Part shown: one piece after another, positions 21,850 through 50,067 of the stretch
Layout of the letters: each line of letters starts with the position of its first letter
Numbering within the stretch: position 1 is the stretch's first letter
From: Hyphomicrobiales bacterium
Lineage (GTDB): Bacteria; Pseudomonadota; Alphaproteobacteria; Rhizobiales; OSC116
DNA length: 64,000 nt
NCBI GenBank assembly: GCA_013214705.1
Contig: JABSRZ010000011.1
Span: 62,001 to 126,000, forward strand
Direction: 5' to 3'
Program-made: the position numbers and the translations under genes
Notes under the pieces: generated by a model
Told to the model about the DNA's origin: nothing
Database searches by the model: none
What the model saw: the letters and a program-made list of their open reading frames with translations, nothing else

Positions 21850-21850
21850 A

Positions 21851-33755: not shown

Positions 33756-34406
33756 TTAATGCGGCGTGATGGCGATTTCTACCCGGCGGTTGGCAGCACG
33801 GCCACCAGCAGAACTGTTGTCAGCAATTGGTTGAAATTCGCCAAAGCCGCGCACGCGAATTCTTTGGTCGGCAACGCCGCGCGCGGCAACATATTGCGCC
33901 ACGCTAATGGCTCTGTTTTCAGATAATGTTTGGTTGGTGCTGGCTATGCCAACACTGTCTGTATGGCCATTAATTTCCAAAGTTGTTTTTTCGTATTTTT
34001 TGAGGGTTTTTGCAATGGCGTTGAGGGCTGGGTAGAATTTACTCACAACCGAATACTCGCCAGTTTGGAAGCTGATATTTGACGGCAATGTGATGATGAT
34101 TTGGTTGTTCACTCGTTTTACAAGCACGCCAGAACTATCTAATTCCGCCCGTAATTCTTTTTCCTGATTATCCATATAAAGGCCGATGCCACCGCCAAAC
34201 AAGCCACCAAGAATAGCGCCAAAGAAGGCATTGCCAACCGCTTCGTTAGAATTTTTGGCTATCAATACACCACCAAGAGCGCCAACACCGGCGCCAATAG
34301 CCGCACCAGTTGCTGCATTGTCTAGCTCGTCGGTATTTACCAAGCCCGATGTGCTGGTACAAGCCACTAGGCCAGTACATAATGCTAACACCAATATTTT
34401 TTTCAT
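33756..34406 (-). CDS. OmpA-family outer-membrane lipoprotein (YiaD-like)
   Basis: 216 residues. Lipoprotein signal peptide with lipobox LVAC (Cys16 lipidated). Residues 30-80 are glycine-zipper-rich (GAAIGAGVGALGGVLIA, AFFGAILGGLFGGGIGLYM). The C-terminal OmpA domain (about 105-216) has the peptidoglycan-binding motif NGHTDSVG and NQTLSENRAISVAQYV, ending RRVEIAI. It anchors outer membrane to peptidoglycan non-covalently. It is a single gene, convergent with lpdA. Confidence 0.93.
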   Translation of the reverse strand: MKKILVLALCTGLVACTSTSGLVNTDELDNAATGAAIGAGVGALGGVLIAKNSNEAVGNAFFGAILGGLFGGGIGLYMDNQEKELRAELDSSGVLVKRVNNQIIITLPSNISFQTGEYSVVSKFYPALNAIAKTLKKYEKTTLEINGHTDSVGIASTNQTLSENRAISVAQYVAARGVADQRIRVRGFGEFQPIADNSSAGGRAANRRVEIAITPH

Positions 34407-34529
34407 GTTTTTCCCTCTTATTGCTGATTTATGTCATATTTGCCGTTACCTTAACTGAATAATGGTAAATTAAGACTAAATTATGTGCGAAATTGGACTT
34501 GTTATCAGATATTAAATAACTCAATGATT

Positions 34530-35396
34530 TTAAGGCCTTAAATTAAAGTGTCGATAGGCTTTTAACTTTAGATCTTCACATATAAACGAAACTGATTTGC
34601 CATATATCTGTTTATATTCGGTGTAAATTTTATCGCAATGAAGCTCGTTATAATGATTGATGATGAATAATTTTCCAGTTTGATAAAATTTTTGTGCAGC
34701 GGTTACATTCCACCAGTTTTTTTCATCGCTATAGGATTCATATAATACCCCATCGAAAATTTGAGAATTTTGAACGTGGTTTTTGGCCATACATTTCATG
34801 CCTTTTTGGTGAACATAAGCGCACAGATTATGGGCATATTCGATGGATTGGGCAATGGTGGCGCGCAAATTATAGGTTTTTCTATTGTCATCATCATAGA
34901 GCCAGTCCATATTATCGAACTCCACCCAGTCAAAACCCCAATTTTCAAGCCTATCTATACGCGCTTGCATTATGCTGACTAGTTGAGGGTTAATTTGGCT
35001 GATGAAATACTCGCCCGGCCATTCACCCCATGGTTTTTGGGTTAGATAGGGTGTTAGGGCGGCAAAATCTGGCCGCCATTCCTCCCCCGTGCCAATGCTG
35101 ATATAAGCGGCAACTTGGTTGTTATTGGCTTTTAAAGCTGCAACTTGCTTGGCTATATTATTTTGCAATGGGTCAAGTAAAATATAGGCATTATGGGCGT
35201 TTGCCAAAATATTTTGCAGCGCATCGGCTTGGTAATTTTCTTGGTAGGCTTGGTTGAAAATCGGCGTTGGTGGCTTTATATGTGCGGTTGCATTGGCCGC
35301 ACTAAGCTCCATAATAAAAAATATAATCAAGCTAGATTTGACGGCAGACACTATATTAGACTCTCTCCAATCTATACACAGGCAATTTTTTACCAT
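34530..35396 (-). CDS. GH114-like TIM-barrel protein (endo-alpha-1,4-polygalactosaminidase family)
   Basis: 288 residues as annotated, but the ATG at 35396 lies inside a palindrome and the N-terminus is odd; an internal start before the signal peptide (SLIIFFIMELSAANATA) is likely. The body shows the GH114 pattern: VAAYISIGTGEEWRPDF, GEWPGEYFI, ARIDRLENWGFDWVEFDNMDWL with acidic residues after the beta strands, and LYESYSDEKNWW. Known members cut galactosaminogalactan-like polysaccharides, and the fold is extracellular or periplasmic. It is divergent from the pyrimidine operon. The substrate is unproven. Confidence 0.75.
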   Translation of the reverse strand: MVKNCLCIDWRESNIVSAVKSSLIIFFIMELSAANATAHIKPPTPIFNQAYQENYQADALQNILANAHNAYILLDPLQNNIAKQVAALKANNNQVAAYISIGTGEEWRPDFAALTPYLTQKPWGEWPGEYFISQINPQLVSIMQARIDRLENWGFDWVEFDNMDWLYDDDNRKTYNLRATIAQSIEYAHNLCAYVHQKGMKCMAKNHVQNSQIFDGVLYESYSDEKNWWNVTAAQKFYQTGKLFIINHYNELHCDKIYTEYKQIYGKSVSFICEDLKLKAYRHFNLRP

Positions 35397-35404
35397 TTGA
35401 TAAA
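35389..35404. promoter_or_regulatory. Candidate second RutR-type operator upstream of preT
   Basis: TTTACCATTTGATAAA matches the RutR consensus TTGACCA-NN-TGGTCAA at 11 of 14 defined positions. It lies 118 bp upstream of preT and overlaps the annotated start of the divergent GH114-like gene. It is weaker than the perfect site at 40561. Confidence 0.4.
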
Positions 35405-35521
35405 AAAATTATTTCCTGTAATGTTAGTATATTATAATTGTTATAATTTACGATCATAAAAATAATCATTTTTAAGAAGTGCAAAAGCGCCAAAAAATAT
35501 TATCCAATTTGAGGGAATGCC

Positions 35522-36868
35522 ATGTCTAATACCCGACTGACCGATGGAGTGGTCTCAGCGCGGCTAGAAGCCGAAGAATATAAAGATAATTTTACAGATT
35601 TGCACGCGCCTCTGAATACGCACGAAGCGCTTGTGGCGGCAGATAGATGCTATTTTTGCTATGACGCTCCTTGTATGGATGCCTGCCCAACAAGCATCGA
35701 CATACCGTTATTTATCCGGCAAATATCTACCGGGAATAATTTGGGCAGTGCCAAAACAATTTTTGACCAAAATATAATGGGTGGCATGTGTGCGCGTGTT
35801 TGCCCGACAGAAACTTTATGCGAAGAAGTGTGTGTGCGTGAAGTGGCCGAAGGAAAACCGGTTAAAATTGGCCAATTGCAACGTTATGCAACTGATGCGC
35901 AAATGAAAACCGGCATTCAGCCCTATATGCGCGCAAAAGCAACAGGCAAAAAAGTGGTGGTGGTTGGCGCTGGGCCAACTGGTTTGGCATGTGCTCATCG
36001 GCTGGCTATGTATGGCCATGAGGTGGTTATATACGAAGCGCGGGCTAAAGCTGGCGGGTTGAATGAATTTGGCATTGCCAGTTATAAATCGGTAGATGGG
36101 TTTGCGCAAAAAGAAGTCGAATGGCTGCTGTCTATTGGTGGCATAAGTATTGAATGTGATAAGAAAATTGGCGATGGCGTTAAGATTGCCGACTTGCAAG
36201 ATGAATTTGATGCGGTTTATTTGGGCATTGGTTTGGGCGGCGTTAATGCGCTAGGGCTTGGCGATGAAACCCAAGACAACGCGCTGGATGCGGTTGATTT
36301 TATATCTGACCTGCGCCAAGCGGGAGACCTAGCTAATCTGCCGATCGGCCGAAATGTGGTGGTTATTGGTGGCGGCATGACCGCAGTTGATGCAGCCGTG
36401 CAAGCCAAATTACTGGGCGCGGAAAGCGTGACCATGGTTTACCGGCGCGGCAAGAAAAATATGAGTGCCTCGGTATATGAACAAGAATTAGCCACCAGCA
36501 AGGGTGTGCGTATTATTTACAATGCCGCCCCGGTAAGAATTCAAGGTAATGGCGCAGCTGAGGCGGTTGAATTTGCTTATACTGAAATTGTTGATGGCAA
36601 ATTGCATCAAACAAATGAGGTATTTGCCTTGCCAGCTGACCAAATATTTACCGCCATTGGGCAGACATTAGATGCCGACATTGCATCGCTGGACATTGAA
36701 GGTGGTAAAATAAAAGTTTTAGACTCTGGGCGCACTTCGCTTGCTAATGTATGGGCCGGTGGTGATTGCGCAACCGGTGGTGATGACTTAACCGTTACCG
36801 CAGTAGCCGAAGGGCGCGATGCGGCTGAAGACATCCATACGGTTCTAACTTCAAATAAGGAGGCTTAA
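35522..36868 (+). CDS. preT: NAD-dependent dihydropyrimidine dehydrogenase subunit PreT
   Basis: 448 residues. The N-terminus has an iron-sulfur cysteine cluster (CYFCYDAPCMDACPTSIDIP) and a second set at CARVCPTETLCEEVCV, as in glutamate-synthase-like and DPD electron-entry domains. FAD-binding VVVGAGPTGLACAHRLAMYG starts near residue 143 and an NAD-binding GGGMTAVDAA near 281. It transfers electrons between NADH and PreA, which reduces uracil and thymine. The preT stop is directly followed by the preA ATG, so the subunits are coupled. Confidence 0.94.
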   Translation: MSNTRLTDGVVSARLEAEEYKDNFTDLHAPLNTHEALVAADRCYFCYDAPCMDACPTSIDIPLFIRQISTGNNLGSAKTIFDQNIMGGMCARVCPTETLCEEVCVREVAEGKPVKIGQLQRYATDAQMKTGIQPYMRAKATGKKVVVVGAGPTGLACAHRLAMYGHEVVIYEARAKAGGLNEFGIASYKSVDGFAQKEVEWLLSIGGISIECDKKIGDGVKIADLQDEFDAVYLGIGLGGVNALGLGDETQDNALDAVDFISDLRQAGDLANLPIGRNVVVIGGGMTAVDAAVQAKLLGAESVTMVYRRGKKNMSASVYEQELATSKGVRIIYNAAPVRIQGNGAAEAVEFAYTEIVDGKLHQTNEVFALPADQIFTAIGQTLDADIASLDIEGGKIKVLDSGRTSLANVWAGGDCATGGDDLTVTAVAEGRDAAEDIHTVLTSNKEA

Positions 36869-38185
36869 ATGGCCGATCTAAGATCTGAATTTATAGGCAT
36901 TAAATCTCCAAACCCGTTTTGGTTAGCCTCTGCACCGCCAACAGACAAAGAATATAATGTTAGGCGTGCGTTTGAAGCCGGCTGGGGCGGCGTCGTGTGG
37001 AAAACCCTCGGCGAGGCTGGCCCGCCAGTGGTGAATGTCAACGGCCCAAGATATGGCGCTATATGGGGCGCAGACAGACGTTTGCTTGGCTTGAATAATA
37101 TAGAATTGATTACCGACCGCCCGCTAGAGGTGAATTTGCGCGAAATCAAAGCCGTTAAGCGCGATTACCCCGACCGTGCGGTGATTGTGTCACTTATGGT
37201 GCCGTGCGAAGAAGAGGCTTGGAAGGCCATTATGCCACTGGTCGAGGAAACCGGCGCTGATGGTGTGGAGCTTAACTTTGGTTGCCCGCATGGCATGGCA
37301 GAGCGTGGTATGGGCAGCGCTGTTGGCCAAGTGCCAGAATATATTGAAATGGTGACCCGTTGGGTTAAGCAATATAGCCGTATGCCTTGTATTGTGAAAT
37401 TAACTCCCAACATTACCGATGTAAATTTGCCAGCCCAAGCTGCTATGCGTGGTGGTGCGGATGCTGTGAGCTTAATCAACACCATTAACTCTATCGTGTC
37501 GGTCGATTTGGATACTTTTGCGCCGCAACCAACCATTGATGGTGTGGGCGCGCATGGTGGTTATTGCGGCCCAGCGGTTAAGCCGATTGCGCTTAATATG
37601 GTGGCCGAGATTGCCCGTAATGCTGCCACCGCACATTTGCCTATATCTGGCATTGGCGGGATAACAACATGGCGCGATGCCGCCGAATTTATAGCTCTGG
37701 GTGCTGGCAATGTGCAAGTTTGCACCGCTGCGATGACTTATGGTTTTAAAATTGTTGAAGAAATGATCACTGGGCTTTCGGCTTGGATGGACGAACAAGG
37801 CCATGAAAGTGTGGCGTCAATTGTAGGGCGGGCTGTGCCTAATACCAAAAATTGGCAGGACCTGAACTTAAATTACATTGCCAAAGCGGTGATTGATCAA
37901 GACGCTTGCATTAAATGTGGCCGCTGTTTTGCGGTGTGCGAAGACACATCTCATCAAGCTATATTTGACCAAATAGATGGCGCGCGCGGGTTTGAAGTGA
38001 ATGATGCCGAATGTGTTGCTTGCAACTTATGCGTCGTGGTTTGCCCGGTCGAAAATTGCATTACGCTGGAACCGTTGGCAGTTGGCGCTATGGACGAACG
38101 CACTGGCAAAGTAGTTGAAGCCGAATATGCAAATTGGACAACTCATCCGAATAATCCGATGGCGGTGACTGAACCTGCCGAATAA
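36869..38185 (+). CDS. preA: NAD-dependent dihydropyrimidine dehydrogenase subunit PreA
   Basis: 438 residues. An FMN-binding dihydroorotate-dehydrogenase-like barrel (NPFWLASAPPTDKEYNVRRAFEAGWGG, LNFGCPHGMAERGMGSAVGQ, TPNITDV, ISGIGGITTW) is followed by two 4Fe-4S motifs (CIKCGRCFAVCED and CVACNLCVVVCPV). It reduces the 5,6 bond of uracil/thymine, the first step of the reductive pathway. At the position of the catalytic cysteine of mammalian DPD (GLACGQD) it has Val (GSAVGQV), as I recall for E. coli PreA. A terminator follows. Confidence 0.95.
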   Translation: MADLRSEFIGIKSPNPFWLASAPPTDKEYNVRRAFEAGWGGVVWKTLGEAGPPVVNVNGPRYGAIWGADRRLLGLNNIELITDRPLEVNLREIKAVKRDYPDRAVIVSLMVPCEEEAWKAIMPLVEETGADGVELNFGCPHGMAERGMGSAVGQVPEYIEMVTRWVKQYSRMPCIVKLTPNITDVNLPAQAAMRGGADAVSLINTINSIVSVDLDTFAPQPTIDGVGAHGGYCGPAVKPIALNMVAEIARNAATAHLPISGIGGITTWRDAAEFIALGAGNVQVCTAAMTYGFKIVEEMITGLSAWMDEQGHESVASIVGRAVPNTKNWQDLNLNYIAKAVIDQDACIKCGRCFAVCEDTSHQAIFDQIDGARGFEVNDAECVACNLCVVVCPVENCITLEPLAVGAMDERTGKVVEAEYANWTTHPNNPMAVTEPAE

Positions 38186-38208
38186 CTTAAATAAATATTG
38201 AATTTAGA

Positions 38209-38237
38209 AGCGAGGTTTGCAATATGTGAACCTCGCT
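38209..38237 (+). terminator. Intrinsic terminator after preA
   Basis: AGCGAGGTT and AACCTCGCT flank an 11-nt loop and are followed by TTTATTTTT, 23 bp after the preA stop. It is only 20 bp before the next gene start. Confidence 0.8.
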
Positions 38238-38256
38238 TTTATTTTTGGGGGCTCAC

Positions 38257-39177
38257 ATGGATAGCAAACAACGTTTAGGCCATATGGCTATGTTGGCATT
38301 CTCGATTATGGTCGCTGGGTCATTTATCTTTGTGGTGAAAATATCCAACTTGGCCGAACCCGCGGCGGTTAACTCTTTAAGGTTTTTAATTGGCGCGGTG
38401 CTGATTGGCCTTTACATGTGGATCAGTAAGTCCATTAGCAAAACAGAGTTTAAGAAAATTATGGTCGCGCCATGGCGGTTTGTGATATTGGCCGGGGTCT
38501 TTAGCTCATATTTTATTTTCATGTTTGAAGGTTTGAAAACTGCTGCTTCGGTGTCTTCATCGGTAATTTTTACGCTTATACCGGTTATGGCCGCCATATT
38601 CGGTTATATATTGTTAAAACAAATTACTACCAAACGCATGGCCCTAGCGTTGTTTATTGGTTTTATTGGCGCAATTTGGGTGATTTTTAAGGCCGATATG
38701 GGCAATTTATTGGCGTTTAAAGTGGGTGGCGGCGAACTGACATATTTTTTGGGCTGCATTGCACATGCTATATTTATACCCCTATCACGCAAATTTAACT
38801 GGGGCGAAAAACCGTTGGTGACTACATTTGCCATATTGGTGATTGGTAGTGTAATGATGGGTGTATATGGCTATGATGATATTGTGGCCACAGATTGGCT
38901 GCATATGCCGTCTGTTTTTTGGCTCGGCTTGTTATATTTGGCTATTGTTAACAGCGCGATTACATTTTTTTTAATTCAATATGCGGCACTTGTTTTGCCT
39001 TCGGCAAAAGTTATGGCGTATAATTTTCTAACCCCGGTATGGGTGATATTATTAGAAGTTTTGTTGGGCAATGAGTGGCCGCCTGTGCTGATATTTATCG
39101 GCATCGCGATGACAATTACGGCATTGATTCTATTATTAAAAGACGAAAAACCACGAGTTAAACCAGTTACGGCTTAA
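38257..39177 (+). CDS. DMT-superfamily EamA transporter
   Basis: 306 residues from the ATG at 38257 (a TTG 12 bp upstream is in frame but less likely). It has ten predicted membrane helices in two EamA repeats (first around 15-140, second around 150-290). The family exports amino acids, metabolites or nucleobases. It sits between preTA and the regulator gene, with whose 3' end it overlaps by 11 bp. Its place inside the pyrimidine locus suggests transport of a pyrimidine or beta-amino acid, but this is inference. Confidence 0.87.
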   Translation: MDSKQRLGHMAMLAFSIMVAGSFIFVVKISNLAEPAAVNSLRFLIGAVLIGLYMWISKSISKTEFKKIMVAPWRFVILAGVFSSYFIFMFEGLKTAASVSSSVIFTLIPVMAAIFGYILLKQITTKRMALALFIGFIGAIWVIFKADMGNLLAFKVGGGELTYFLGCIAHAIFIPLSRKFNWGEKPLVTTFAILVIGSVMMGVYGYDDIVATDWLHMPSVFWLGLLYLAIVNSAITFFLIQYAALVLPSAKVMAYNFLTPVWVILLEVLLGNEWPPVLIFIGIAMTITALILLLKDEKPRVKPVTA

Positions 39178-40441
39178 GCATAGATTTAAACAGGTTTTCT
39201 AAATATATCGCGGCGTCTTTGTAGCGTTGAACATTATTTTTGCCCATTAAAGTGCGAATTTGCGCATCGAAATCGGCGTAATGCTGGGTGGTTGCCCAAA
39301 TCGAAAATAACAGATGATGCGGGTCTATATCTGCGATTTTACCGGCTTCACTCCAGCTTTTAATGAGCGCTGTTTTCTCATCGACCAAGGTCTTTAAGCC
39401 GCCAGATATAAGGCTATTTATGCGTGGGACACCTTGTAAGATTTCATTGGCGAACAACCGGCTTTCGCGCGGGAAATCTTCTGACATCTGCAATTTACGT
39501 TGCATATAGGCTATAATCTCCGCAACGGGTTCGCCATCTTTATCTATTTGTTCTAGTGGCTCTAACCAAGCTTTAAGAAGCCTTTCGAGCAATTGGGCGT
39601 GAATGGCCTCTTTGCTTTGGAAATAATAAAGAATGTTGGGTTTGGACATGCCAGCTTGAGTGGCTATTTGGTCGATGGTTGAGCCGCGAAACCCGTAGGC
39701 AGAAAAAATATCCAGCGCTGCAGATAAGATTTGTTCGGTCTTTTTACGTTGAATGCGGGTTTTGGGAACAGTTTTTTTATGAGCTTGATGGGGAGACCTT
39801 GCGCGTGCGCCAGCGCCATCCAATATGATTTTTTTAATGTCCCGGGTGGCATTATCCCATTGTTTATCGGATAATTGTTTGTTGCCATTCAAAGTTTCAA
39901 TCTGATGGGTGAAATCGGCATAATGTTGAGTGGTCGCCCAAATCATATATAGCAAATGTTTTGGCTCTATCGGGTCAAGCAGCCCCTCATCAATCCAGCC
40001 TTGAATGTTGGCTTCGCGGGACTTTGTCCATTCGGCTAAATTGGTTTCTAAATAATCTTGAATGATGGGCGCGCCGTGCATCACCTCGTTAGCCCATACT
40101 TTGGAGCTATAGGGATATTTGCGCGAAATTTCCATTTTTTTATCTATATAGCCAGAAAGTGCCTCTATCGGGTTGGCTTGATTGTCGAAGGTATCTGCAG
40201 CGCCGAGCCAAATTTCAAATATATTTTCGACAATTTTGCCATAAAGTGCAAGTTTTGTCGGGTAATAATAATGCAAGTTGGCTTTCGGGATGCCAGCCAG
40301 GTCGGCAATCATTTGGGTGGTGGCACCACGAAAGCCATATTCGGCAAATATGCGTTCAGCAGCGTGCAAAATTGTTTTTTCATTCTCTAGCCTTATATCG
40401 GCTTTGCTAGGTTGTTTTGAAATAACAGGTGAAGAAGACAT
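39167..40441 (-). CDS. Tandem-fused RutR-like TetR regulator (two full TetR units in one chain)
   Basis: 424 residues made of two complete TetR/RutR proteins. Unit 1 (about 15-210) has its helix-turn-helix at TTQMIADLAGIPKANLHYYY. Unit 2 (about 232-424) has TIDQIATQAGMSKPNILYYF. Each ends with the RutR block IWATTQHYADF (167-177 and 381-391). The linker (211-232) is basic. No stop or frameshift separates the units, so it is a true single chain. RutR binds uracil and represses pyrimidine-use genes as a dimer. Here one chain could form a pseudo-dimer on DNA. It is divergent from the aminotransferase operon with a perfect RutR palindrome between them. Confidence 0.93.
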   Translation of the reverse strand: MSSSPVISKQPSKADIRLENEKTILHAAERIFAEYGFRGATTQMIADLAGIPKANLHYYYPTKLALYGKIVENIFEIWLGAADTFDNQANPIEALSGYIDKKMEISRKYPYSSKVWANEVMHGAPIIQDYLETNLAEWTKSREANIQGWIDEGLLDPIEPKHLLYMIWATTQHYADFTHQIETLNGNKQLSDKQWDNATRDIKKIILDGAGARARSPHQAHKKTVPKTRIQRKKTEQILSAALDIFSAYGFRGSTIDQIATQAGMSKPNILYYFQSKEAIHAQLLERLLKAWLEPLEQIDKDGEPVAEIIAYMQRKLQMSEDFPRESRLFANEILQGVPRINSLISGGLKTLVDEKTALIKSWSEAGKIADIDPHHLLFSIWATTQHYADFDAQIRTLMGKNNVQRYKDAAIYLENLFKSMLKP

Positions 40442-40560
40442 ATTGAAAATAGACCAACAAAATCAGAAGTTGAAAGAGCTATAAATTGACTTTAAATGTA
40501 GAATGTAATTAGTTTACATGAAGCCATATTATAAAACAATAGACGGGTTGGTTTTTCATG

Positions 40561-40576
40561 TTGACCAATTGGTCAA
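40561..40576. promoter_or_regulatory. RutR operator (perfect palindrome) over the -35 box of the catabolic operon
   Basis: TTGACCAATTGGTCAA exactly fits the RutR consensus TTGACCA-NN-TGGTCAA. Its first six bases can serve as a -35 box, with TATAGT at 40583-40588 after a 16-bp spacer as the -10 box. Binding would block RNA polymerase. It lies 42 bp upstream of the aminotransferase ATG and 119 bp from the regulator start. Confidence 0.85.
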
Positions 40577-40618
40577 CAATGATATAGTTAGCTCAATATA
40601 TATGAAGTGGGAGATTTC

Positions 40619-41950
40619 ATGATGCCGGATAATTCAAATGTTGTGCCAAATGACTTAAGCGCATTTTGGATGCCGTTTACTAATAACAGGCAATTTAAAA
40701 AAAATCCTCGTATGTTTGTCGGCGCCAAAGACATGCATTTTACCACATCTGAAGGCAACCAAGTGCTTGATGCCACGGCTGGCCTATGGTGTGTAAATGC
40801 TGGCCATTGCCGGCCATTAATTACCGAAGCCATTCAAAAACAAGCCGCTGAGTTAGATTACGCACCGGCATTTCAGCTTGGCCACCCTAAAGCGTTTCAA
40901 CTGGCGAACCGCATTGTCGAACTAACACCAGATGGCATGGACCATGTGTTTTATACCAATAGTGGTTCGGAATCGGTCGAAACGGCATTAAAAATAGCCT
41001 TGGCCTACCAAAAAACCATCGGGCAGGGCAGCCGCACGCGTCTAATTGGCCGCGAACGTGGCTATCATGGGGTCAACTTTGGTGGCATTAGCGTTGGTGG
41101 CATTGTGCCAAACCGTAAAATGTTTGGCACTTTACTAGCTGGTGTTGACCATTTGCCACATACCCATTTGCCCGAACAAAATAATTTTGTCAAAGGTGAG
41201 CCACAACATGGCGCAAATTTAGCCGATGAGCTAGAACGCATTGTGGCTTTGCATGATGCCTCTACCATCGCAGCGGTAATTGTGGAGCCCGTTGCCGGCT
41301 CGACAGGTGTGTTAATTCCGCCAAAAGGTTATTTGCAGCGGTTGCGCAATATATGTACCAAGCATGGTATATTGCTGATATTTGATGAAGTGATTACCGG
41401 TTTTGGCCGCATGGGCGCAAACTTTGCGGCCGATTATTATGGCGTTACGCCAGATATTATCACCACTGCAAAAGGCCTGACCAATGGGGTGATACCTATG
41501 GGCGCGGTGATTGTGAAAAATGAAATACATGATGCATTTATGACCGGCCCCGAAGAAATGATTGAATTCTTCCACGGTTATACCTATTCGGGCAATCCGA
41601 TTGCCTCAGCAGCGGCTTTGGCGACATTGGAAACCTACAAACAAGAAAACCTGTTTGAGCGCGCGGCAGAGATGGCGCCATATTGGCAAGATGCTTTGCA
41701 TTCGCTCAAAGATGCGCCTTATGTTATTGATGTCCGAAATATTGGGCTCATTGGCGCGATTGAGCTTGAGCCGATTGCTGGCAAGCCAACCAAGCGTGCG
41801 TTTTCGGCGTTTTACAAAGCGTTTGATAAAGGCCTGTTGATCAGAACCACTGGTGATATTATAGCCATGTCGCCGCCATTGATTGTGAGCAAAGGCCAGA
41901 TTGATGAAATTGTAGGCAAAATTCGTGACATATTAAATGAGATAGACTGA
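40619..41950 (+). CDS. Omega-amino acid (beta-alanine):pyruvate aminotransferase
   Basis: 443 residues from the ATG at 40619, chosen because gtgggag is 5 bp upstream; a GTG at 40607 is less likely. It is a class III PLP aminotransferase with Asp256 (LIFDEVITGFGR) and PLP lysine 285 (TTAKGLTNG). The N-terminal FWMPFTNNRQFKKNPR is typical of beta-alanine:pyruvate enzymes. It converts beta-alanine (or 3-aminoisobutyrate) to malonate semialdehyde (or methylmalonate semialdehyde). It is the first gene of a long operon whose next gene oxidises that product. Confidence 0.93.
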   Translation: MMPDNSNVVPNDLSAFWMPFTNNRQFKKNPRMFVGAKDMHFTTSEGNQVLDATAGLWCVNAGHCRPLITEAIQKQAAELDYAPAFQLGHPKAFQLANRIVELTPDGMDHVFYTNSGSESVETALKIALAYQKTIGQGSRTRLIGRERGYHGVNFGGISVGGIVPNRKMFGTLLAGVDHLPHTHLPEQNNFVKGEPQHGANLADELERIVALHDASTIAAVIVEPVAGSTGVLIPPKGYLQRLRNICTKHGILLIFDEVITGFGRMGANFAADYYGVTPDIITTAKGLTNGVIPMGAVIVKNEIHDAFMTGPEEMIEFFHGYTYSGNPIASAAALATLETYKQENLFERAAEMAPYWQDALHSLKDAPYVIDVRNIGLIGAIELEPIAGKPTKRAFSAFYKAFDKGLLIRTTGDIIAMSPPLIVSKGQIDEIVGKIRDILNEID

Positions 41951-41964
41951 TTGGGAATAGAGAT

Positions 41965-43455
41965 ATGGATATTATTCAAAATGGTATTAATGGTGAACTT
42001 GTAACCTCTAACTCTGCCACGCAAGTGCCAGTTTTTAACCCGGCCACGGGCGAAGTTTCGGCTCAGTTGCCAATATCAACAGCGGCTGAAGTTGACGCTG
42101 CTGTGGCCGCTGCCAAAGCGGCATTGCCTGCATGGGCAAATTTGCCGCCGCTAAAACGTGCGGCTTTCATGTTTAAATTTAAGCAATTGTTAGATGATAA
42201 CGCCCAAGAAATTGCACGTGCGATATCTAAAGAACATGGCAAAACCCACCCAGATGCATTGGGTGAGCTACAACGCGGCATCGAAATTGTGGATTACGCC
42301 TGCGGTATTCCCGGCCTGTTAAAAGGCGAGTTCAGCCGCAATGTTGGCCCGTCGATTGACACCCATTCTGACCGCCAACCGTTGGGCGTAGTGGCAGGCA
42401 TAACCCCGTTTAACTTCCCAGCTATGGTGCCGATGTGGATGTTTCCGATCGCAGTGATGTGCGGCAATACATTTGTATTAAAACCATCCGAGCGTGACCC
42501 ATCTGCACCGATGCTGATTTGGGAATTGTTTCAACAAGCTGGTTTCCCAGCCGGTGTATTTAACATCGTGCATGGTGACAAAAGCGCGGTTGACCGATTG
42601 CTAGACCATAGCGATGTCAAAGCCATAAGTTTTGTCGGCTCGACCCCCATTGCGGAATATATTTACAGCCGTGGTACGGCTGCTGGCAAACGCGTGCAAG
42701 CTTTAGGCGGCGCTAAAAACCATATGATTATTATGCCAGATGCCGATATGGACCAGGTTGCCGATGCGCTGATGGGCGCAGGTTATGGCAGTGCAGGCGA
42801 GCGCTGCATGGCGATATCTGTGGCGGTGCCAATTGGCGAAGAAACCGCTGATAGATTGGTTGCCACCTTAAAACCACGGGTTGAGGCGTTAAAAATTGGC
42901 CCTGCAACCGATGATGATGCCGAAATGGGCCCCGTGATTACCAAAATGCACCAAGAAAAAGTGCTTGGTTATATTGACCAAGGTGTCAAAGAAGGTGCGG
43001 AACTGGTGGTTGATGGCCGCGGCTTTAACTTACAGGGCTATGAAAATGGCTATTATGTGGGCGGCACTTTGTTTGATAAAGTGACGACCGACATGGTCAT
43101 ATATAAAGAAGAAATATTTGGCCCCGTGCTGCAAGTTGCGCGCGCGACCGATTATGAAACCGCCATCGACATGATAAACAAGCATGAATATGGCAATGGT
43201 ACAGCTATATTTACCCGCGATGGCGACGCTGCGCGGAATTTTGCTGACCGCATAGAAGTGGGCATGGTAGGCATTAATGTGCCGATTCCGGTGCCAGTTG
43301 CCTATCATAGTTTTGGTGGCTGGAAGCGTTCATCATTTGGTGACCATGGCATTTATGGCGAAGAAGGCATACATTTTTATACCCGGCTTAAAACCGTGAC
43401 CACACGTTGGCCAAAAGGCATTAAAAGCGGGGCGGCATTTGCGTTTCCAACTTAA
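41965..43455 (+). CDS. mmsA: CoA-acylating methylmalonate-semialdehyde dehydrogenase
   Basis: 496 residues. Aldehyde dehydrogenase fold with catalytic Cys281 in GSAGERCMAIS, the RCMA form typical of MmsA/IolA, and the NAD site FVGSTPIAEYI. It converts malonate or methylmalonate semialdehyde to acetyl-CoA or propionyl-CoA plus CO2. It lies 14 bp after the aminotransferase and completes pyrimidine carbon breakdown to central metabolism. Both ends look complete. Confidence 0.95.
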   Translation: MDIIQNGINGELVTSNSATQVPVFNPATGEVSAQLPISTAAEVDAAVAAAKAALPAWANLPPLKRAAFMFKFKQLLDDNAQEIARAISKEHGKTHPDALGELQRGIEIVDYACGIPGLLKGEFSRNVGPSIDTHSDRQPLGVVAGITPFNFPAMVPMWMFPIAVMCGNTFVLKPSERDPSAPMLIWELFQQAGFPAGVFNIVHGDKSAVDRLLDHSDVKAISFVGSTPIAEYIYSRGTAAGKRVQALGGAKNHMIIMPDADMDQVADALMGAGYGSAGERCMAISVAVPIGEETADRLVATLKPRVEALKIGPATDDDAEMGPVITKMHQEKVLGYIDQGVKEGAELVVDGRGFNLQGYENGYYVGGTLFDKVTTDMVIYKEEIFGPVLQVARATDYETAIDMINKHEYGNGTAIFTRDGDAARNFADRIEVGMVGINVPIPVPVAYHSFGGWKRSSFGDHGIYGEEGIHFYTRLKTVTTRWPKGIKSGAAFAFPT

Positions 43456-43495
43456 TGGATAGCTAAATAATTAAAGCGAGTTTTGGGAGGGATTT

Positions 43496-44746
43496 ATGAA
43501 TACGGCAGGTGAAAATTTACGCATTAACGGCGACCGTTTGTGGGCGAGTATCCATGAATTGGCCGAAATTGGCCCTGGCATTGCTGGGGGCAATAACCGC
43601 CAAACGCTGACTGATGAAGATGGTGAAGGCCGCCATCTGTTTAGAAAATGGTGCGAAGAGGCTGGGTTGACCATGGGCGTTGACCAGATGGGCAACATGT
43701 TTATGACCCGCGCCGGTACAGACCCGGATGCCCTGCCAGTTTACGTTGGCAGCCATTTAGACACCCAACCAACCGGCGGCCGCTATGATGGCATATTAGG
43801 CGTGCTCGCTGGGTTGGAAATTGCCCGCACGTTAAACGATTTAGACATCCAGACCAAGCACCCGATAGTTGTGACCAATTGGACCAACGAAGAAGGCACG
43901 CGTTATGCCCCGGCTATGCTGGCATCTGGCGTGTTTGCTGGCATGCACACCCAAGAGTGGGCTTATGAAATTGAAGATGCCGAGGGCAAAAAGTTTGGCG
44001 ATGAGCTAAAGCGCATTGGCTGGTGTGGTGACGAAGAAGTCGGCGCCCGCAAAATGCACGCTTTCTTTGAATTGCACATTGAGCAAGGCCCTATTTTAGA
44101 AATCGAAGGCAAAGACATTGGTGTGGTGACACATGGTCAAGGCTTAAGCTGGACGCAGTTGACCATAACTGGCAAAGACAGTCACACTGGAAGTACGCCG
44201 ATGCCGATGCGCAAAAACGCTGGTTTGGGCATGGCAAAAATACTGCAATTGGTAGATGAAATTGCTTGGTCGCACGCGCCAAATGCTGTCGGCGCTGCAG
44301 GGCATATCGAGGTGTTTCCCAATAGCCGCAACGTAATACCCGGTAAAGTGGTGTTTACGGTCGATCTGCGTTCGCCAGACCTTGCCACCATTCAAGACAT
44401 GGAAAAGCGTTTAAAGTCCGGTGCACAACAAATATGTGACGATATGGGCTTGGGCGTAGAGTTTGAAAAAGTCGGTGGTTTCGACCCGGTAACTTTTGAT
44501 GAAAAATGCGTAACCGCTGTGCGCAATGCCGCCGACCGCTTGGGCTATAGCCATAGGGACATTATATCTGGCGCGGGGCATGACGCCTGTTGGATTAACC
44601 GCACAACGCCAACGGCGATGATTATGTGCCCATGTGTCGACGGTTTGTCGCATAATGAGGCTGAGGATATTAGCCAAGAATGGTCGACAGCCGGGGCTGA
44701 AGTTTTGTTCCACGCGGTTGTCGAAACTGCGCAGATTGTGAAATAA
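43496..44746 (+). CDS. Zn-dependent N-carbamoyl-beta-alanine amidohydrolase (beta-ureidopropionase)
   Basis: 416 residues of the M20-type hydantoinase/carbamoylase family. Metal ligands appear in VGSHLDTQPTGGRYDGILG, TNEEGTRYAPAM and ELHIEQGPILE; DSHTGSTPM and GAGHDA follow. It hydrolyses N-carbamoyl-beta-alanine to beta-alanine, CO2 and ammonia. Allantoate amidohydrolase is the nearest alternative, but the pyrimidine genes on both sides settle the role. The ribosome binding site is gggaggg. Confidence 0.93.
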   Translation: MNTAGENLRINGDRLWASIHELAEIGPGIAGGNNRQTLTDEDGEGRHLFRKWCEEAGLTMGVDQMGNMFMTRAGTDPDALPVYVGSHLDTQPTGGRYDGILGVLAGLEIARTLNDLDIQTKHPIVVTNWTNEEGTRYAPAMLASGVFAGMHTQEWAYEIEDAEGKKFGDELKRIGWCGDEEVGARKMHAFFELHIEQGPILEIEGKDIGVVTHGQGLSWTQLTITGKDSHTGSTPMPMRKNAGLGMAKILQLVDEIAWSHAPNAVGAAGHIEVFPNSRNVIPGKVVFTVDLRSPDLATIQDMEKRLKSGAQQICDDMGLGVEFEKVGGFDPVTFDEKCVTAVRNAADRLGYSHRDIISGAGHDACWINRTTPTAMIMCPCVDGLSHNEAEDISQEWSTAGAEVLFHAVVETAQIVK

Positions 44747-44783
44747 CATTATTTTGTCCAAACATTTGAGGGAGTGAGCGAAC

Positions 44784-46241
44784 ATGGCGAATAAAGTGAT
44801 TAAGGGCGGAACGATTGTTACCGCTGACCGTACATATATAGCCGATGTGTTGATTGAAGATGGCCGCATTGCTGAAATAGGGCAAAACTTAACTGGCGAT
44901 GAGACCTTAGACGCTACCGGTTGTTACATAATGCCGGGCGGTATAGACCCGCATACCCATTTGGAAATGCCGTTTATGGGCACATATTCCACTGATGATT
45001 TTGAAAGTGGCACGCGCGCTGGCCTTGCTGGCGGCACAACTATGGTGGTGGATTTTGCCCTGCCAAACCCGCAACAATCGCTGACCGAAGCGCTAAAAGG
45101 CTGGCATAATAAATCCTCCCGTGCCAATTGCGACTATAGCTTTCATATGGCAATCACGTGGTGGGGAGAGCAAGTTTTTGACGACATGGAAACCATCGTT
45201 AAACAGCATGGCATCAATACATTCAAACATTTCATGGCCTATAAAGGCGCATTAATGGTCGATGATGATGAGATGTTTTCATCTTTCCAACGTTGTGCGG
45301 CGCTGGGGGCTTTGCCATTGGTGCATGCCGAAAATGGCGATGTGGTGGCGCAAATGCAAGCCAAATTGCTCGAAGAAGGCAATAATGGCCCAGAAGCCCA
45401 TGCTTTTTCGCGACCGCCAGAGGTGGAAGGGGAAGCCACAAACCGCGCCATCATGATTGCTGATATGGCCGGTGTTCCGCTCTATGTGGTGCATACAAGT
45501 TGCGAACAAGCCCACGAAGCCATACGCCGCGCCCGTCAAAATGGCATGCGTGTCTATGGCGAGCCGCTTATTCAGCATTTGACGCTTGATGAAAGCGAAT
45601 ATGCCAACCCAGATTGGGACCATGCCGCTAGACGCGTGATGAGCCCGCCATTTAGAAGCAAGGCTCATCAAGATAGTCTGTGGGCTGGTTTGCAATCGGG
45701 CAGTTTGCAAGTGGTGGCGACCGACCATTGTGCTTTTACCACTGAGCAAAAGCGCAACGGAATTGATAATTTTACCCTGATACCAAATGGCACGGGGGGG
45801 CTTGAAGACCGCATGCCAATGTTATGGACACATGGTGTGGAAACCGGCCGATTGACGATGAATGAATTTGTCGCTGTAACCTCGACCAATATCGCCAAAA
45901 TACTCAATATGTACCCGCAAAAAGGCGCGATATTGCCCGGTTCTGATGCCGATATTGTGGTCTGGGACCCGAAGTTAAGCAAAACCATTTCGGCCAAATC
46001 GCAACAATCTAGCATTGATTATAATGTGTTTGAAGGCAAGCAAGTAACCGGTTTGCCGCGCTTTACCTTAACTCGCGGCCAGTTGGCTGTAACCGAAGGT
46101 GCGGTGACCACGCAAGAAGGCCATGGCAAATTTGTAAGCCGTAAGCCTTTTCCAGCTGTAAACAGCGCTTTGAGCAAATGGAAAAATGTAACCGCCCCAC
46201 GCAAAGTGCAACGTACCGGCATCCCTGCCTCTGGTGTGTAA
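44784..46241 (+). CDS. Dihydropyrimidinase (D-hydantoinase)
   Basis: 485 residues of the cyclic amidohydrolase family. The metal site has His57 and His59 (GGIDPHTHLEMPF) and carbamylated Lys154 (FKHFMAYKGAL). LVHAENGDVV, VVHTSCEQAHEAI and ATDHCAFTTEQK follow in the usual order. It hydrolyses dihydrouracil/dihydrothymine to N-carbamoyl-beta-amino acids, feeding the preceding gene product. A hydantoin or other cyclic imide could also be used. Confidence 0.95.
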   Translation: MANKVIKGGTIVTADRTYIADVLIEDGRIAEIGQNLTGDETLDATGCYIMPGGIDPHTHLEMPFMGTYSTDDFESGTRAGLAGGTTMVVDFALPNPQQSLTEALKGWHNKSSRANCDYSFHMAITWWGEQVFDDMETIVKQHGINTFKHFMAYKGALMVDDDEMFSSFQRCAALGALPLVHAENGDVVAQMQAKLLEEGNNGPEAHAFSRPPEVEGEATNRAIMIADMAGVPLYVVHTSCEQAHEAIRRARQNGMRVYGEPLIQHLTLDESEYANPDWDHAARRVMSPPFRSKAHQDSLWAGLQSGSLQVVATDHCAFTTEQKRNGIDNFTLIPNGTGGLEDRMPMLWTHGVETGRLTMNEFVAVTSTNIAKILNMYPQKGAILPGSDADIVVWDPKLSKTISAKSQQSSIDYNVFEGKQVTGLPRFTLTRGQLAVTEGAVTTQEGHGKFVSRKPFPAVNSALSKWKNVTAPRKVQRTGIPASGV

Positions 46242-46263
46242 GCTCGTTTTAAAGGAATATTGA

Positions 46264-47061
46264 GTGTCTGACAAATTAGCTTCGGCAACTGTAATCTCGG
46301 CAAAAAAACTATCATTGGTGTTCCAAACCGCTGACGCGCCTGTGCATGCGCTGTCTGAGGTGGATTTGGAGATTAAAAAGGGCGAATTTGTATCGTTTAT
46401 TGGCCCTTCTGGCTGTGGTAAGACCACGTTTTTACGCGCCATTGCCGACTTAGAACAACCAACATCGGGCGAGTTGTTGGTCAATGGCGTCACGCCTTCC
46501 GAGGCACGCGAAGCTCGGGCTTATGGTTATGTGTTTCAACATGCTTCTTTATTTCCGTGGCGAACCATAGAGAATAACATTGCTTTGCCGTTGGAAATAA
46601 TGGGGTATTCGAAAGCTGAGCAAAAACAACGTATTGACCGGACTTTGGAAATGGTGGACTTGCAAGATTTTGCCAAAAAATACCCGTGGCAATTGTCTGG
46701 TGGTATGCAGCAACGGGCATCGATTGCCAGATCGCTGGCGTTTGATGCTGATTTGCTATTGATGGATGAACCTTTTGGCGCGTTAGATGAAATTGTCCGC
46801 GATCATTTGAACCAACAACTATTGGAGCTTTGGGCGCGCACCGAAAAAACCATATGTTTTGTCACCCATTCGATCAGCGAAGCGGTATATTTATCGACCA
46901 AAATCGTGGTGATGAGCCCAAGACCGGGGCGGGTTATCGACATTATCCATTCTACTTTGCCTAAACAGCGCTCGCTCGACATCAGAGAAAGCGATGAATT
47001 TAGAGACATTGCGCAGCGGGTACGCGAAGGCTTAAGGGCGGGGCAAAGTTATGATGGGTAA
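46264..47061 (+). CDS. ABC transporter ATP-binding protein (TauB/SsuB/ThiZ type)
   Basis: 265 residues from a GTG start with an aaggaat site. Walker A GPSGCGKT (residues 47-54), Q-loop FQHASLFPWRTI, signature LSGGMQQRASIARS, Walker B LLLMDEPFGALDE. FPWRTI after the Q is typical of the nitrate/sulfonate/taurine/thiamine-precursor group. It overlaps the next permease by 11 bp. With the two permeases and the NMT1-type binding protein it makes an importer that probably brings in a pyrimidine. Confidence 0.92.
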   Translation: MSDKLASATVISAKKLSLVFQTADAPVHALSEVDLEIKKGEFVSFIGPSGCGKTTFLRAIADLEQPTSGELLVNGVTPSEAREARAYGYVFQHASLFPWRTIENNIALPLEIMGYSKAEQKQRIDRTLEMVDLQDFAKKYPWQLSGGMQQRASIARSLAFDADLLLMDEPFGALDEIVRDHLNQQLLELWARTEKTICFVTHSISEAVYLSTKIVVMSPRPGRVIDIIHSTLPKQRSLDIRESDEFRDIAQRVREGLRAGQSYDG

Positions 47062-47953
47062 AGACGGCAAACTCGTACCTATATTGACGGTATTGGCGGT
47101 TATACTTGGCATCTGGTATGTCAGCGTGGTGTGGTTAAATGCGCCGTTCGAATATGATCAAGCCAAACGCAATAACATTGAACTGAGCTTTGGCGAAATG
47201 GTGACTAACAGCATGAGCCAAAAGCGGCCGGTATTGCCCGCCGCTCATCAAGTGTTTGAAGAAATTTGGAACACCACGGTGTTAAAGAATATAACTTCAA
47301 AAAGATCGTTGATTTATCACGCTTGGATTACCCTATCGGTTACATTATTGGGGTTTTTGATGGGCAGTATTTTGGGCATTTTGCTATCGGTCGGCATTGT
47401 TTACAACCGCGCTATGGAAAAATCGGTTATGCCATGGGTGATAACCAGCCAAACCATACCCATTTTGGCGATAGCGCCGATGATTATTGTGGTATTGAAT
47501 GCCATTGGTTTTTCGGGTCTGTTGCCAAAAGCGTTTATATCGACTTATTTGTCGTTCTTCCCGGTGGTTGTCGGCATGGTCAAAGGCTTGCGCAGCCCAG
47601 AGACATCGCATTTAGACCTTATGCGCACCTATTATAGTAGCAATACTCAGTTATTTTGGAAGCTGCGCTGGCCGTCTTCTATGCCTTATTTATTCACCTC
47701 ACTTAAAGTGGCGGTTGCGGCATCGTTAGTTGGCGCTATTGTGGCTGAATTGCCAACCGGAGCAGTTGCCGGGCTTGGCGCGCGGATGTTGGCTGGCTCT
47801 TATTACGGCCAAACCATACAAATTTGGTCGGCGTTATTTGTGGCGGCCATCGTGGCGGCCGGTCTGGTTATTATAGTCGGGATTGTGCATAATATTGTCT
47901 TAAAACGCATGGGGCAGTTAGAAGAGCAGAATGCAAGGGGGGCGCAGGCATGA
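47051..47953 (+). CDS. ABC transporter permease (TauC/SsuC-like), first
   Basis: 300 residues with about six membrane helices and a long periplasmic segment near the N-terminus. The BPD_transp_1 core (about 95-290) has the EAA loop at SHLDLMRTYYSSNTQLFWKLRWPSSMPYLFTSLK. It overlaps the ATPase gene by 11 bp and the next permease by 4 bp, showing tight coupling. Confidence 0.9.
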   Translation: MMGKDGKLVPILTVLAVILGIWYVSVVWLNAPFEYDQAKRNNIELSFGEMVTNSMSQKRPVLPAAHQVFEEIWNTTVLKNITSKRSLIYHAWITLSVTLLGFLMGSILGILLSVGIVYNRAMEKSVMPWVITSQTIPILAIAPMIIVVLNAIGFSGLLPKAFISTYLSFFPVVVGMVKGLRSPETSHLDLMRTYYSSNTQLFWKLRWPSSMPYLFTSLKVAVAASLVGAIVAELPTGAVAGLGARMLAGSYYGQTIQIWSALFVAAIVAAGLVIIVGIVHNIVLKRMGQLEEQNARGAQA

Positions 47954-48807
47954 ATTTAATTTTTGCAAGTGCATTGCTGTTTTGGCTGGCGGCTTGGGCG
48001 TTAAACCAATGGTTGGTAAAACAGACTTTCTCCAACATTATGACCCAACGGTTGGTAGATGTTTTTGTGCCATTATCGTTTGGCATTACGCTTTTGGTAT
48101 TGTGGGAAGGCGCGGCCAAAGGCTATGATATACCTAAAATATTGCTGCCACCGCCGACGATGATTTGGGAACGAATTACCAATAGCTTGCCAATTTTGTG
48201 GGCAGATTTTAAACAAACATTCTTATTTGCAGTGCTAATCGGTTATGCCATTGGTTGTGGCAGTGGTTTTATCGCCGCCATGTTAATTGACCGCTCGCCA
48301 TTTTTGAAGCGTGGACTGTTGCCTTTGGGCAATTTTGTCGCGGCGCTACCAATTATCGGTGTTGCTCCAATTATGGTGATGTGGTTCGGGTTTGATTGGC
48401 ATTCCAAAGCCGCTGTGGTGATTATTATGACGTTTTTCCCAATGCTGGTGAATACAGTGCAGGGGCTAGCGGTGTCTGGTCATATGGAGCGAGATTTAAT
48501 GCGCACCTATGCTGGCAGTTGGGGGCAAACTATGCTGAAATTGCGTTTGCCGAGCGCCATGCCATTTATTTTTAATGCCTTAAAGATTAACTCAACTTTG
48601 GCAATGATTGGCGCCATTGTGGCTGAATTTTTTGGCACGCCAACAGTGGGTATGGGGTTTAGAATCTCAACCGAAGTGGGGCGGTTGAATGTGGATATGG
48701 TGTGGGCCGAAATTGCCATGGCAGCTTTGGCGGGCTCCACATTTTATGGCATCATTGCGCTGATAGAGAAGCGGGTGACTTTTTGGCACCCATCGCAGCG
48801 GGTGTAG
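47950..48807 (+). CDS. ABC transporter permease (TauC/SsuC-like), second
   Basis: 285 residues, six or seven helices. The EAA loop is MERDLMRTYAGSWGQTMLKLRLPSAMPFIFNALK, close to that of the first permease, so the pair arose by duplication and probably forms a heterodimer. It starts within the previous gene (ATGA overlap). The binding protein follows 95 bp later. Confidence 0.9.
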   Translation: MNLIFASALLFWLAAWALNQWLVKQTFSNIMTQRLVDVFVPLSFGITLLVLWEGAAKGYDIPKILLPPPTMIWERITNSLPILWADFKQTFLFAVLIGYAIGCGSGFIAAMLIDRSPFLKRGLLPLGNFVAALPIIGVAPIMVMWFGFDWHSKAAVVIIMTFFPMLVNTVQGLAVSGHMERDLMRTYAGSWGQTMLKLRLPSAMPFIFNALKINSTLAMIGAIVAEFFGTPTVGMGFRISTEVGRLNVDMVWAEIAMAALAGSTFYGIIALIEKRVTFWHPSQRV

Positions 48808-48902
48808 GGCAATCGAAGTTTAGGGCAATGCCCTAGAAAGCATGGCTAAGGAGCCAGATTAAGAAGCAGAATATGAAAAAAACTAAACTAAGAGGGAAGA
48901 AA

Positions 48903-49892
48903 ATGAATAAAATTAGTACATTATTATTGGCTGGTGCCATGTCGCTGACGGCGATGAGTGCCTTGGCTGCTGAAAAAGTCACTTTACAGCTAAAATGGGT
49001 AACACAAGCCCAATTTGCTGGCTATTATGTTGCGCAAGATAAAGGTTTTTATGCCGATGAAGACCTAGATGTCGAAATCAAATCCGGTGGCCCTGACATC
49101 GCCCCGACGCAAGTGATTGCTGGCGGTGCTGCTGACGTGGTGCTAGATTGGATGCCGTCTGCATTGGCTGCCCGCGAAAAAGGCGTGCCATTGGTGAATA
49201 TTGCACAACCGTTTAAATCATCTGGTATGATGTTGACATGTCGTAAAGACAGCGGCATTAAAACCCCGGCTGATTTTGCAGGCAAAACATTGGGCGTATG
49301 GTTCTTTGGTAACGAATATCCATTCTTGAGCTGGATGAGCAAATTAGGCTTATCTACAAATGGTGGCGCCGATGGTGTGACTGTGTTGAAACAAGGCTTT
49401 AACGTAGATCCTATTTTACAAAAGCAAGCCGCTTGCGTGTCCACTATGACCTATAATGAATATTGGCAGATTATTGATGCTGGTCTATCTGCTGATGATT
49501 TGATTACATTTAAATATGAAGATCAAGGCGTTGCAACGCTTGAAGATGGTATGTATGTGCTTGAAGAGAACCTCAATGACCCTGCCTTTGTAGACAAAAT
49601 GGTACGGTTTGTACGTGCCTCTATGAAGGGCTGGGCATATGCCGAAGCTAACCCAGATGAAGCGGCTGACATTGTGTTAGACAATGATGCATCTGGTGCA
49701 CAAACTGAAAAACATCAACGTCGTATGATGGGCGAAATTGCCAAACTTACTGCTGGCTCTAACGGTGGTGCATTGTCTGAAGCTGATTATCAACGTACTG
49801 TTGATGTGCTGTTATCTGGTGGTGCTGACGTGATTACTAAGCAACCAGAAGGCGCTTGGACAAGTGTGATTACTGACGCTGCAAACATGTAG
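48903..49892 (+). CDS. NMT1/THI5-like ABC substrate-binding protein (putative pyrimidine binder)
   Basis: 329 residues from the ATG at 48903, which has gaggga just upstream; the ORF reaches 48873 but without a matching site. A Sec signal peptide runs to about residue 23 (MSALAAEK). The mature start LQLKWVTQAQFAGYYVAQDKGFYADEDLDVEI is the NMT1/THI5 domain, whose members bind pyrimidines such as HMP or riboflavin-like ligands. Linked to catabolic genes, it probably binds uracil, thymine or a dihydropyrimidine. It ends the operon at a terminator. Confidence 0.92.
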   Translation: MNKISTLLLAGAMSLTAMSALAAEKVTLQLKWVTQAQFAGYYVAQDKGFYADEDLDVEIKSGGPDIAPTQVIAGGAADVVLDWMPSALAAREKGVPLVNIAQPFKSSGMMLTCRKDSGIKTPADFAGKTLGVWFFGNEYPFLSWMSKLGLSTNGGADGVTVLKQGFNVDPILQKQAACVSTMTYNEYWQIIDAGLSADDLITFKYEDQGVATLEDGMYVLEENLNDPAFVDKMVRFVRASMKGWAYAEANPDEAADIVLDNDASGAQTEKHQRRMMGEIAKLTAGSNGGALSEADYQRTVDVLLSGGADVITKQPEGAWTSVITDAANM

Positions 49893-49919
49893 TTGTAATT
49901 TACATAAGACAAAATATGG

Positions 49920-49952
49920 CTCTTCCTTATTGATTTAAGGGAGAGTTTTTTT
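49920..49952 (+). terminator. Intrinsic terminator ending the pyrimidine operon
   Basis: CTCTTCCTTA ... TAAGGGAGAG (one T-G pair, 6-nt loop) followed by seven T's, 28 bp after the stop. Confidence 0.9.
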
Positions 49953-50067
49953 GTAGTGACGGTACTTATTTGACACGATGTTGGCTAAAAAATAGGTTGA
50001 AACAAAGCTAATTTAGCTCATAATCCTTTTATAACAACAACTTCTTCGAATGTTTACGAGGGCAAAT

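Follow-up and report, generated by a model that had tools for sequence, protein, structure and literature searches.

The gene at 39167-40441 of the window, the 64,000-nucleotide stretch from a Hyphomicrobiales bacterium analyzed here, raises the question of whether two complete RutR-like regulators can work as a single chain on one operator, and with which ligands. TetR regulators are described as homodimers. A sequence-only reading of this gene had claimed an uninterrupted 424-residue frame with two full RutR-like TetR units and the block IWATTQHYADF in both, and these observations were confirmed by reading the frame and by Pfam searches of each half. The two TetR_N matches in one protein that this reading called for were found, and each half also contains a TetR_C_3 (YcdC-like) domain; all four domains exceed their gathering scores, which places both halves in the TetR family. 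The parts of the gene are as follows.

39167-40441, minus strand: tandem RutR-like gene, one frame with an ATG start, 424 aa, without internal stop
39806-40441, minus strand: unit 1 (U1), residues 1-212, helix-turn-helix (HTH) and TetR_C_3, from Pfam and the tree
39758-39814, minus strand: linker, about residues 210-228, low model confidence
39167-39757, minus strand: unit 2 (U2), residues 229-424 and stop, HTH and TetR_C_3, from Pfam (residues 218-424) and the tree
40265-40318, minus strand: HTH of U1, residues 42-59, includes K53 (equivalent to E. coli K52)
39623-39676, minus strand: HTH of U2, residues 256-273, includes K267 (equivalent to E. coli K52)

The two units are 39% identical (67 of 173 aligned residues), so the divergence between them stands as first described and the estimate of about a third was slightly low. 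U1 shares 39% and U2 shares 49% identity with E. coli RutR (YcdC; PDB 4JYK, 6Z1B), which is one 212-residue unit, whereas the tandem chain consists of two diverged units. On the RutR models TIGR03613 (cut-off 368 bits) and NF011584 (cut-off 230 bits), U1 scored 199.7 and 183.0 bits and U2 scored 224.5 and 202.2 bits, respectively; E. coli RutR, used as a control, scored 385.5 and 463.6 bits. The units are termed RutR-like because neither half alone reaches the equivalog cut-offs. The whole 424-aa chain passes the RutR equivalog model at 420 bits because two subthreshold stretches sum.

The tandem gene sits with a preTA/dihydropyrimidinase pathway and not with rut genes as RutR does in E. coli. 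By the established pathway, the enzymes of the surrounding cluster would break down uracil and thymine by reduction, giving beta-alanine and beta-aminoisobutyrate and then CoA esters. The neighboring genes are the following.

35522-38185, plus strand: preT-like gene (presumably; no model above cut-off) and preA, a dihydropyrimidine dehydrogenase subunit (above cut-off)
38245-39177, plus strand: what we take to be an EamA-type transporter gene, convergent with the tandem gene, no NCBIfam match
40607-43455, plus strand: genes for the omega-aminotransferase AptA and methylmalonate-semialdehyde dehydrogenase
43496-46241, plus strand: genes for a hydantoinase/carbamoylase-family amidase and dihydropyrimidinase
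46264-49892, plus strand: ABC importer consisting of an ATPase and, as we assume, two permeases and an NMT1-type binding protein

The 3' ends of the tandem gene and the EamA-type gene share 11 bases. The aptA-like gene is given from its first listed GTG at 40607; the ATG at 40619 is the likelier start. Rfam returned no match in 34000-51000. The fusion is kept together with preTA and dihydropyrimidinase genes in G000, G001, and G005, which are the species of the genus with long enough contigs, and the association proposed from the sequence is thereby borne out.

The RutR site is a palindrome of about 16 bp (PMC10891134, available part). A perfect palindrome of this length lies between the tandem gene and the divergent aptA-like gene, and the predicted regulatory elements of the locus are listed below.

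40561-40576, no strand: predicted operator TTGACCAATTGGTCAA, perfect 16-bp palindrome, RutR box, between the divergent genes
40561-40588, plus strand: predicted sigma-70-like promoter of the aptA-like operon, TTGACC-16-TATAGT, 10/12, called by consensus match only
35389-35404, no strand: possible weak second site near preT, TTTACCATTTGATAAA, 3 mismatches

The letters used for the scan are those that we take to be the RutR box consensus; as a control, they gave a 3-mismatch match between E. coli rutA and rutR, where 0.2 were expected in that stretch. The operator is the sole site without mismatch genome-wide. At up to one mismatch, 0.01 boxes were expected in the window and two were found, at 40561 and 43680, and at up to two mismatches the genome holds 66 sites versus 25 for the reversed pattern. 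G001 and G005 carry TTGACCGTCTGGTCAA, one substitution off, at the operator position. A RutR box thus adjoins pyrimidine-catabolism genes at the tandem locus, as a related box does in E. coli. The operator overlaps the -35 element of the predicted aptA-like promoter, which was the best of four promoter-like sites in a scan of 301 bases in which 1.4 were expected. G001 and G005 have the same letters at the weak preT site, although the sequence around it differs. The 43680 box, TTGACCAGATGGGCAA, has one mismatch, falls inside the amidase gene (43680-43695), and is also found in L042 (at 14100) while being absent from the sites listed for L038. A regulon beyond the cluster found no support among the 1-mismatch sites, since both of those located outside the window (L171 and L172) fall inside ORFs that do not look pyrimidine-related.

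Outside the genus, the orthologous units are separate genes in every relative examined, which comprised other genomes of the order and class. We classified 126 distinct loci among L038-L168, with the window excluded; four loci with duplicate unit proteins were dropped, as was L074, a distant paralogue under the score limit. Separate U1 and U2 genes were present in 61 loci, a fused gene in 3, U2 only in 53, and U1 only in 9, where "only" refers to the fetched stretch rather than the whole genome and includes the G004 fragments L041 and L040; because the sample was chosen by similarity to the tandem protein, these proportions are not natural frequencies. The genes run from U1 to U2 on one strand in 60 of the 61 loci with both, which is the order of the fused chain, and most separate genes are surrounded by much of the same reductive pyrimidine-degradation cluster. 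The gap between them is within about 150 nt in 32 loci. According to the ORF tables, the overlap amounts to 4 nt in seven pairs (L047, L049, L050, L052, L053, L080, and L136), and it reads ATGA in all five of these that were inspected. Such an overlap commonly indicates translational coupling.

A maximum-likelihood tree of 132 thinned rows separates a U1 clade (100/99) from U2 and E. coli RutR. The U1 halves of the genus group together and so do its U2 halves, with some long branches in the tree, that of E. coli included. The clustering of the fused halves within each clade indicates a single fusion in a single genus. The nearest relative of the genus U1 is the U1 of G096, and those of the genus U2 are U2 proteins outside the usual cluster arrangement; the histories of the two halves may differ. 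Five U2-like genes of this kind (L060, L061, L062, L065, and L066) are 64-68% identical to unit 2 and have no close RutR box upstream. Some of them are the closest relatives of the fused unit 2, and in L061, L065, and L066 a gene of the aptA-like or amidase type lies about 8 kb away. A mirror-tree comparison gave a U1-U2 correlation of 0.69-0.89, yet U2 and the ABC ATPase of the same cluster gave 0.78. Faster evolution of U2 when paired was hinted at by branch lengths and was set aside, as depths from the clade base pointed the opposite way.

Other fusions were sought in overlapping draws of 150, 397, 385, and 398 genomes, and among the matches listed no uninterrupted match to both halves occurred outside the genus. 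The best 80 of at least 564 relatives, from at least 595 matching stretches of a named-genome scan, likewise held none. In G378 and G651 both halves match with one stop inside, and in G101, G181, G418, and G1084 the one long open frame listed proved on reading to be separate ORFs; all six were rejected as fusions. No fusion was present among the 20 listed of 111 matches to plasmid records, where single places of about 600 bases are matched by both halves. The sequence-only reading had named relatives with always separate units as grounds against a genuine fusion. This describes every relative examined outside the genus and does not hold within it, and the separate genes explain the origin of the fusion rather than refute it.

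The number of boxes differs with the arrangement of the genes. The box search covered the 400 bases that precede the domain of each unit, with up to two mismatches allowed for the first and up to three for a second. Where U1 and U2 are separate, a box precedes U1 in 56 of 60 usable loci, and in 54 of these 56 a second box lies at a distance of 28-44 bases, most often 33 or 34. A box is also present in 44 of 52 U2-only and 5 of 8 U1-only loci, but not one of these 49 box-bearing one-regulator loci has a second. The contrast of 54/56 with 0/49 gives a Fisher p of 5e-28, which is not a true probability because the species are related; random stretches of equal width contain such a site in 28 of 2480 cases. 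U2 genes with a U1 in the same locus have a box in 10 of 61 cases and a second box in none. Genus g62 holds both states, with two boxes in G108 and G228 and one in G073. Whereas the separate genes of Alphaproteobacteria usually come with two boxes about 33 bp apart, the fused genus pairs one chain with one box and no second (the window, L038, and L042), and L041 of G004 has a single box between preT and aptA; the contig of G003 stops short of this region. This tracking of regulator number by box number points to a functional tie between U1 and U2. The paired boxes before U1 (L043-L162) point oppositely, the distal being of the G-A type in 30 of 54 and the proximal of the A-G type in 40 of 54. 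Half-site asymmetry was rejected as a marker of homo- versus heterodimers, since it is also present in one-regulator loci.

These findings probably reflect a naturally occurring RutR-like repressor, made as one chain, that controls the reductive pyrimidine-degradation cluster, acts as a U1:U2 pseudo-dimer on one box, and is released by a pyrimidine. In the proposed mechanism, ancient paralogues that are neighboring and partly overlapping genes in related Alphaproteobacteria would have become one chain in the ancestor of the genus, and the chain would fold as an intramolecular U1:U2 pseudo-dimer. Both HTHs would then hold the single palindromic box at 40561-40576, which would block the -35 element of the divergent aptA-like operon and perhaps damp the chain's own gene. 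Uracil, or thymine, would bind in pockets completed by the glutamine of the partner unit and cause release. Points against this reading are that a plain homodimer through one unit would also need one box, that the 43680 site has no place in it, and that promoter-like sites exceed expectation in the region as a whole (four versus 1.4).

An AlphaFold2 model from a 10-row alignment (pLDDT 80.7, pTM 0.63, with linker residues 214-226 below 50) fits an intramolecular pseudo-dimer and is no proof of one. The top Foldseek matches are RutR chains, each to a single unit, followed by a full-length match to Mce3R (rmsd 8.6, TM 0.58-0.63). VIA-align ranked Mce3R (9b7y) first, with Z 25.1, rmsd 4.8, and 363 residues aligned over residues 11-424. 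AlphaFold2 tends to dock two TetR units of one chain. Given this tendency, the moderate pTM, the 10 rows, and the loose Foldseek superposition, the model is weak evidence for the assembly. The pseudo-dimer on one operator suggested by the sequence-only reading is probably correct in view of the one perfect palindromic box and of Mce3R being the model's best whole-length match.

The structure of Mce3R of Mycobacterium tuberculosis, a single chain made of two TetR units, has been solved. The units form an omega-shaped intramolecular pseudo-dimer whose two HTHs are not identical, the operator is not a palindrome, and there is a single ligand-binding domain, whose cavity is hydrophobic (PMC11667970, available part). 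The tandem chain resembles Mce3R in that one conserved frame encodes two complete TetR units, and it differs in belonging to another TetR subfamily (16% identity by Foldseek). Furthermore, the box nearest to the tandem chain is a perfect palindrome and both of its pockets look intact.

An arrangement that we consider unlikely is that like pairs with like, so that two chains would join through U1:U1' and U2:U2' contacts into a four-HTH assembly that bridges boxes or loops 40561 to the preT site. The boxes found at up to two mismatches in U1-only and U2-only loci suggest that each kind of unit can probably homodimerize, three species, two of which are closely related, share the weak preT site, and Mce3R single chains dimerize further (PMC11667970, available part). 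However, a four-HTH assembly should favor the retention of both boxes, and the one promoter box of the fused genus, compared to two with separate genes, counts against like-with-like pairing and against four-HTH use of the fused chain at the aptA-like promoter. For the separate U1 and U2 proteins of many Alphaproteobacteria, we tentatively suggest that they could form mixed dimers or a mixed tetramer on the boxes spaced by about 33 bp, a two-subunit sensor that the fused genus would have hard-wired; we regard this as possible rather than probable. If true, there would be a conserved TetR system that is heteromeric, and the natural single chain would be its proof. In nature these regulators come as one gene with a single box, as two genes with a pair of boxes, and as a fused gene with a single box, which provides a clean test of heteromer function in neighboring paralogous TetR genes.

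The sequence-only reading had further suggested that the units sense different ligands, and the ligand pocket speaks against it. In E. coli RutR, uracil is stacked between W77 and W167 and bonded to Q171, Y97 is reached via water, Q179 is contributed by the other monomer, and K52 is located at the DNA (PMC10891134, available part). The equivalents are W78, W168, Q172, Y98, Q180, and K53 in U1 and W292, W382, Q386, Y312, Q394, and K267 in U2. The tandem chain thus shares with E. coli RutR the two-domain build, the uracil-contact residues including the partner glutamine, and the DNA-contacting lysine. All five pocket residues and the K52 equivalent are invariant in both units of the four fused chains. 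Of 39 U1 and 41 U2 units from the genome search, fused halves included, 38 or 39 and all 41, respectively, retain the five residues, with L084 and the distant paralogue L074 as the U1 exceptions; named loci were left out of this count because they were seeded on peptides containing some of the pocket residues. A two-input switch seems rather improbable on this basis: U1 and U2 are old, separately conserved paralogues whose recognition-helix positions 51, 53, and 56 differ consistently, but their five uracil-contact residues are the same, from which both pockets should bind the same kind of pyrimidine. Judged by these residues, each pocket of the proposed pseudo-dimer should be completed by the glutamine of the other unit and bind the same pyrimidine type. 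L074 itself (G000:C23:166685-167287) is a 210-residue distant RutR-like paralogue with E and V at the Q171 and Q179 positions, and it probably senses something else.

The genus sample of six genomes contains the full fused frame, of 424-427 aa, in four; the three chains beyond the window are 425, 425, and 427 aa long. G001 and G005 are 98% identical in each unit, which leaves three diverged lineages of the fused chain in all. In G004, the frame can be followed past unit 1 and across the linker up to the contig end, where it diverges; the remainder of unit 2 lies on another contig. In G002 (71% complete), a distant paralogue is the only one present. Between the more diverged species, identity is 73-81% in U1 and 72-73% in U2, and pS is 0.67-0.89; pN is 0.11-0.16 for U1 and 0.17-0.19 for U2, compared with 0.5-0.6 for the linker. 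The linkers of the four fused genes contain no stop and no ATG or GTG. A freely changing linker without a stop, flanked by two constrained halves, indicates selection for the joined chain.

The same values make it very doubtful that unit 2 alone binds DNA and ligand with unit 1 as a structural or modulating appendage. Although U2 has the higher scores on the RutR models and the closer similarity to E. coli RutR, the constraint on U1 is, if anything, the stronger, U1 retains the K52 equivalent and all pocket residues, and it is the sole unit in eight loci, five of which have a box of the same kind. That the joining is a sequencing or assembly error, such as the hidden stop that the sequence-only reading raised against itself, or that unit 2 is made separately from an internal start, can be dismissed with near certainty: relatives outside the genus have two genes, and three of the four genes have in-frame TTG or GTG codons toward the end of unit 1 (by eye, with no obvious ribosome-binding sequence), but the fused frame recurs in the assemblies of three other species, synonymous sites are close to saturated where these have diverged, and the four linkers offer no ATG or GTG.

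With respect to known systems, engineered single-chain Tet regulators reportedly have two Tet repressor units per chain. Such regulators exist as man-made proteins (PMC1797012, available part), whereas the tandem RutR-like chain is natural. RutR regulons for pyrimidine catabolism have been predicted in 68 genomes of 13 groups with taxon-specific motif changes, and the available part of that study mentions neither two paralogues nor a fusion (PMC5343134). No report of a single-chain or tandem RutR was found among the matches listed from the open-licence full-text literature, so the earlier remark that no such protein has been characterized holds for RutR, but a single-chain double TetR of another subfamily has been characterized in Mce3R (PMC11667970). 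Given that precedent, a single-chain double TetR is not new, and the RutR-like version with a palindromic box and two pockets is a new variant. As read from its residues, the chain would offer a naturally occurring single-chain scaffold whose two small-molecule pockets are apparently intact and whose operator is palindromic. Elsewhere in the window, three genes on the minus strand (18604-23903) resemble a mutagenesis cassette and are presumably imuA, imuB, and dnaE2.
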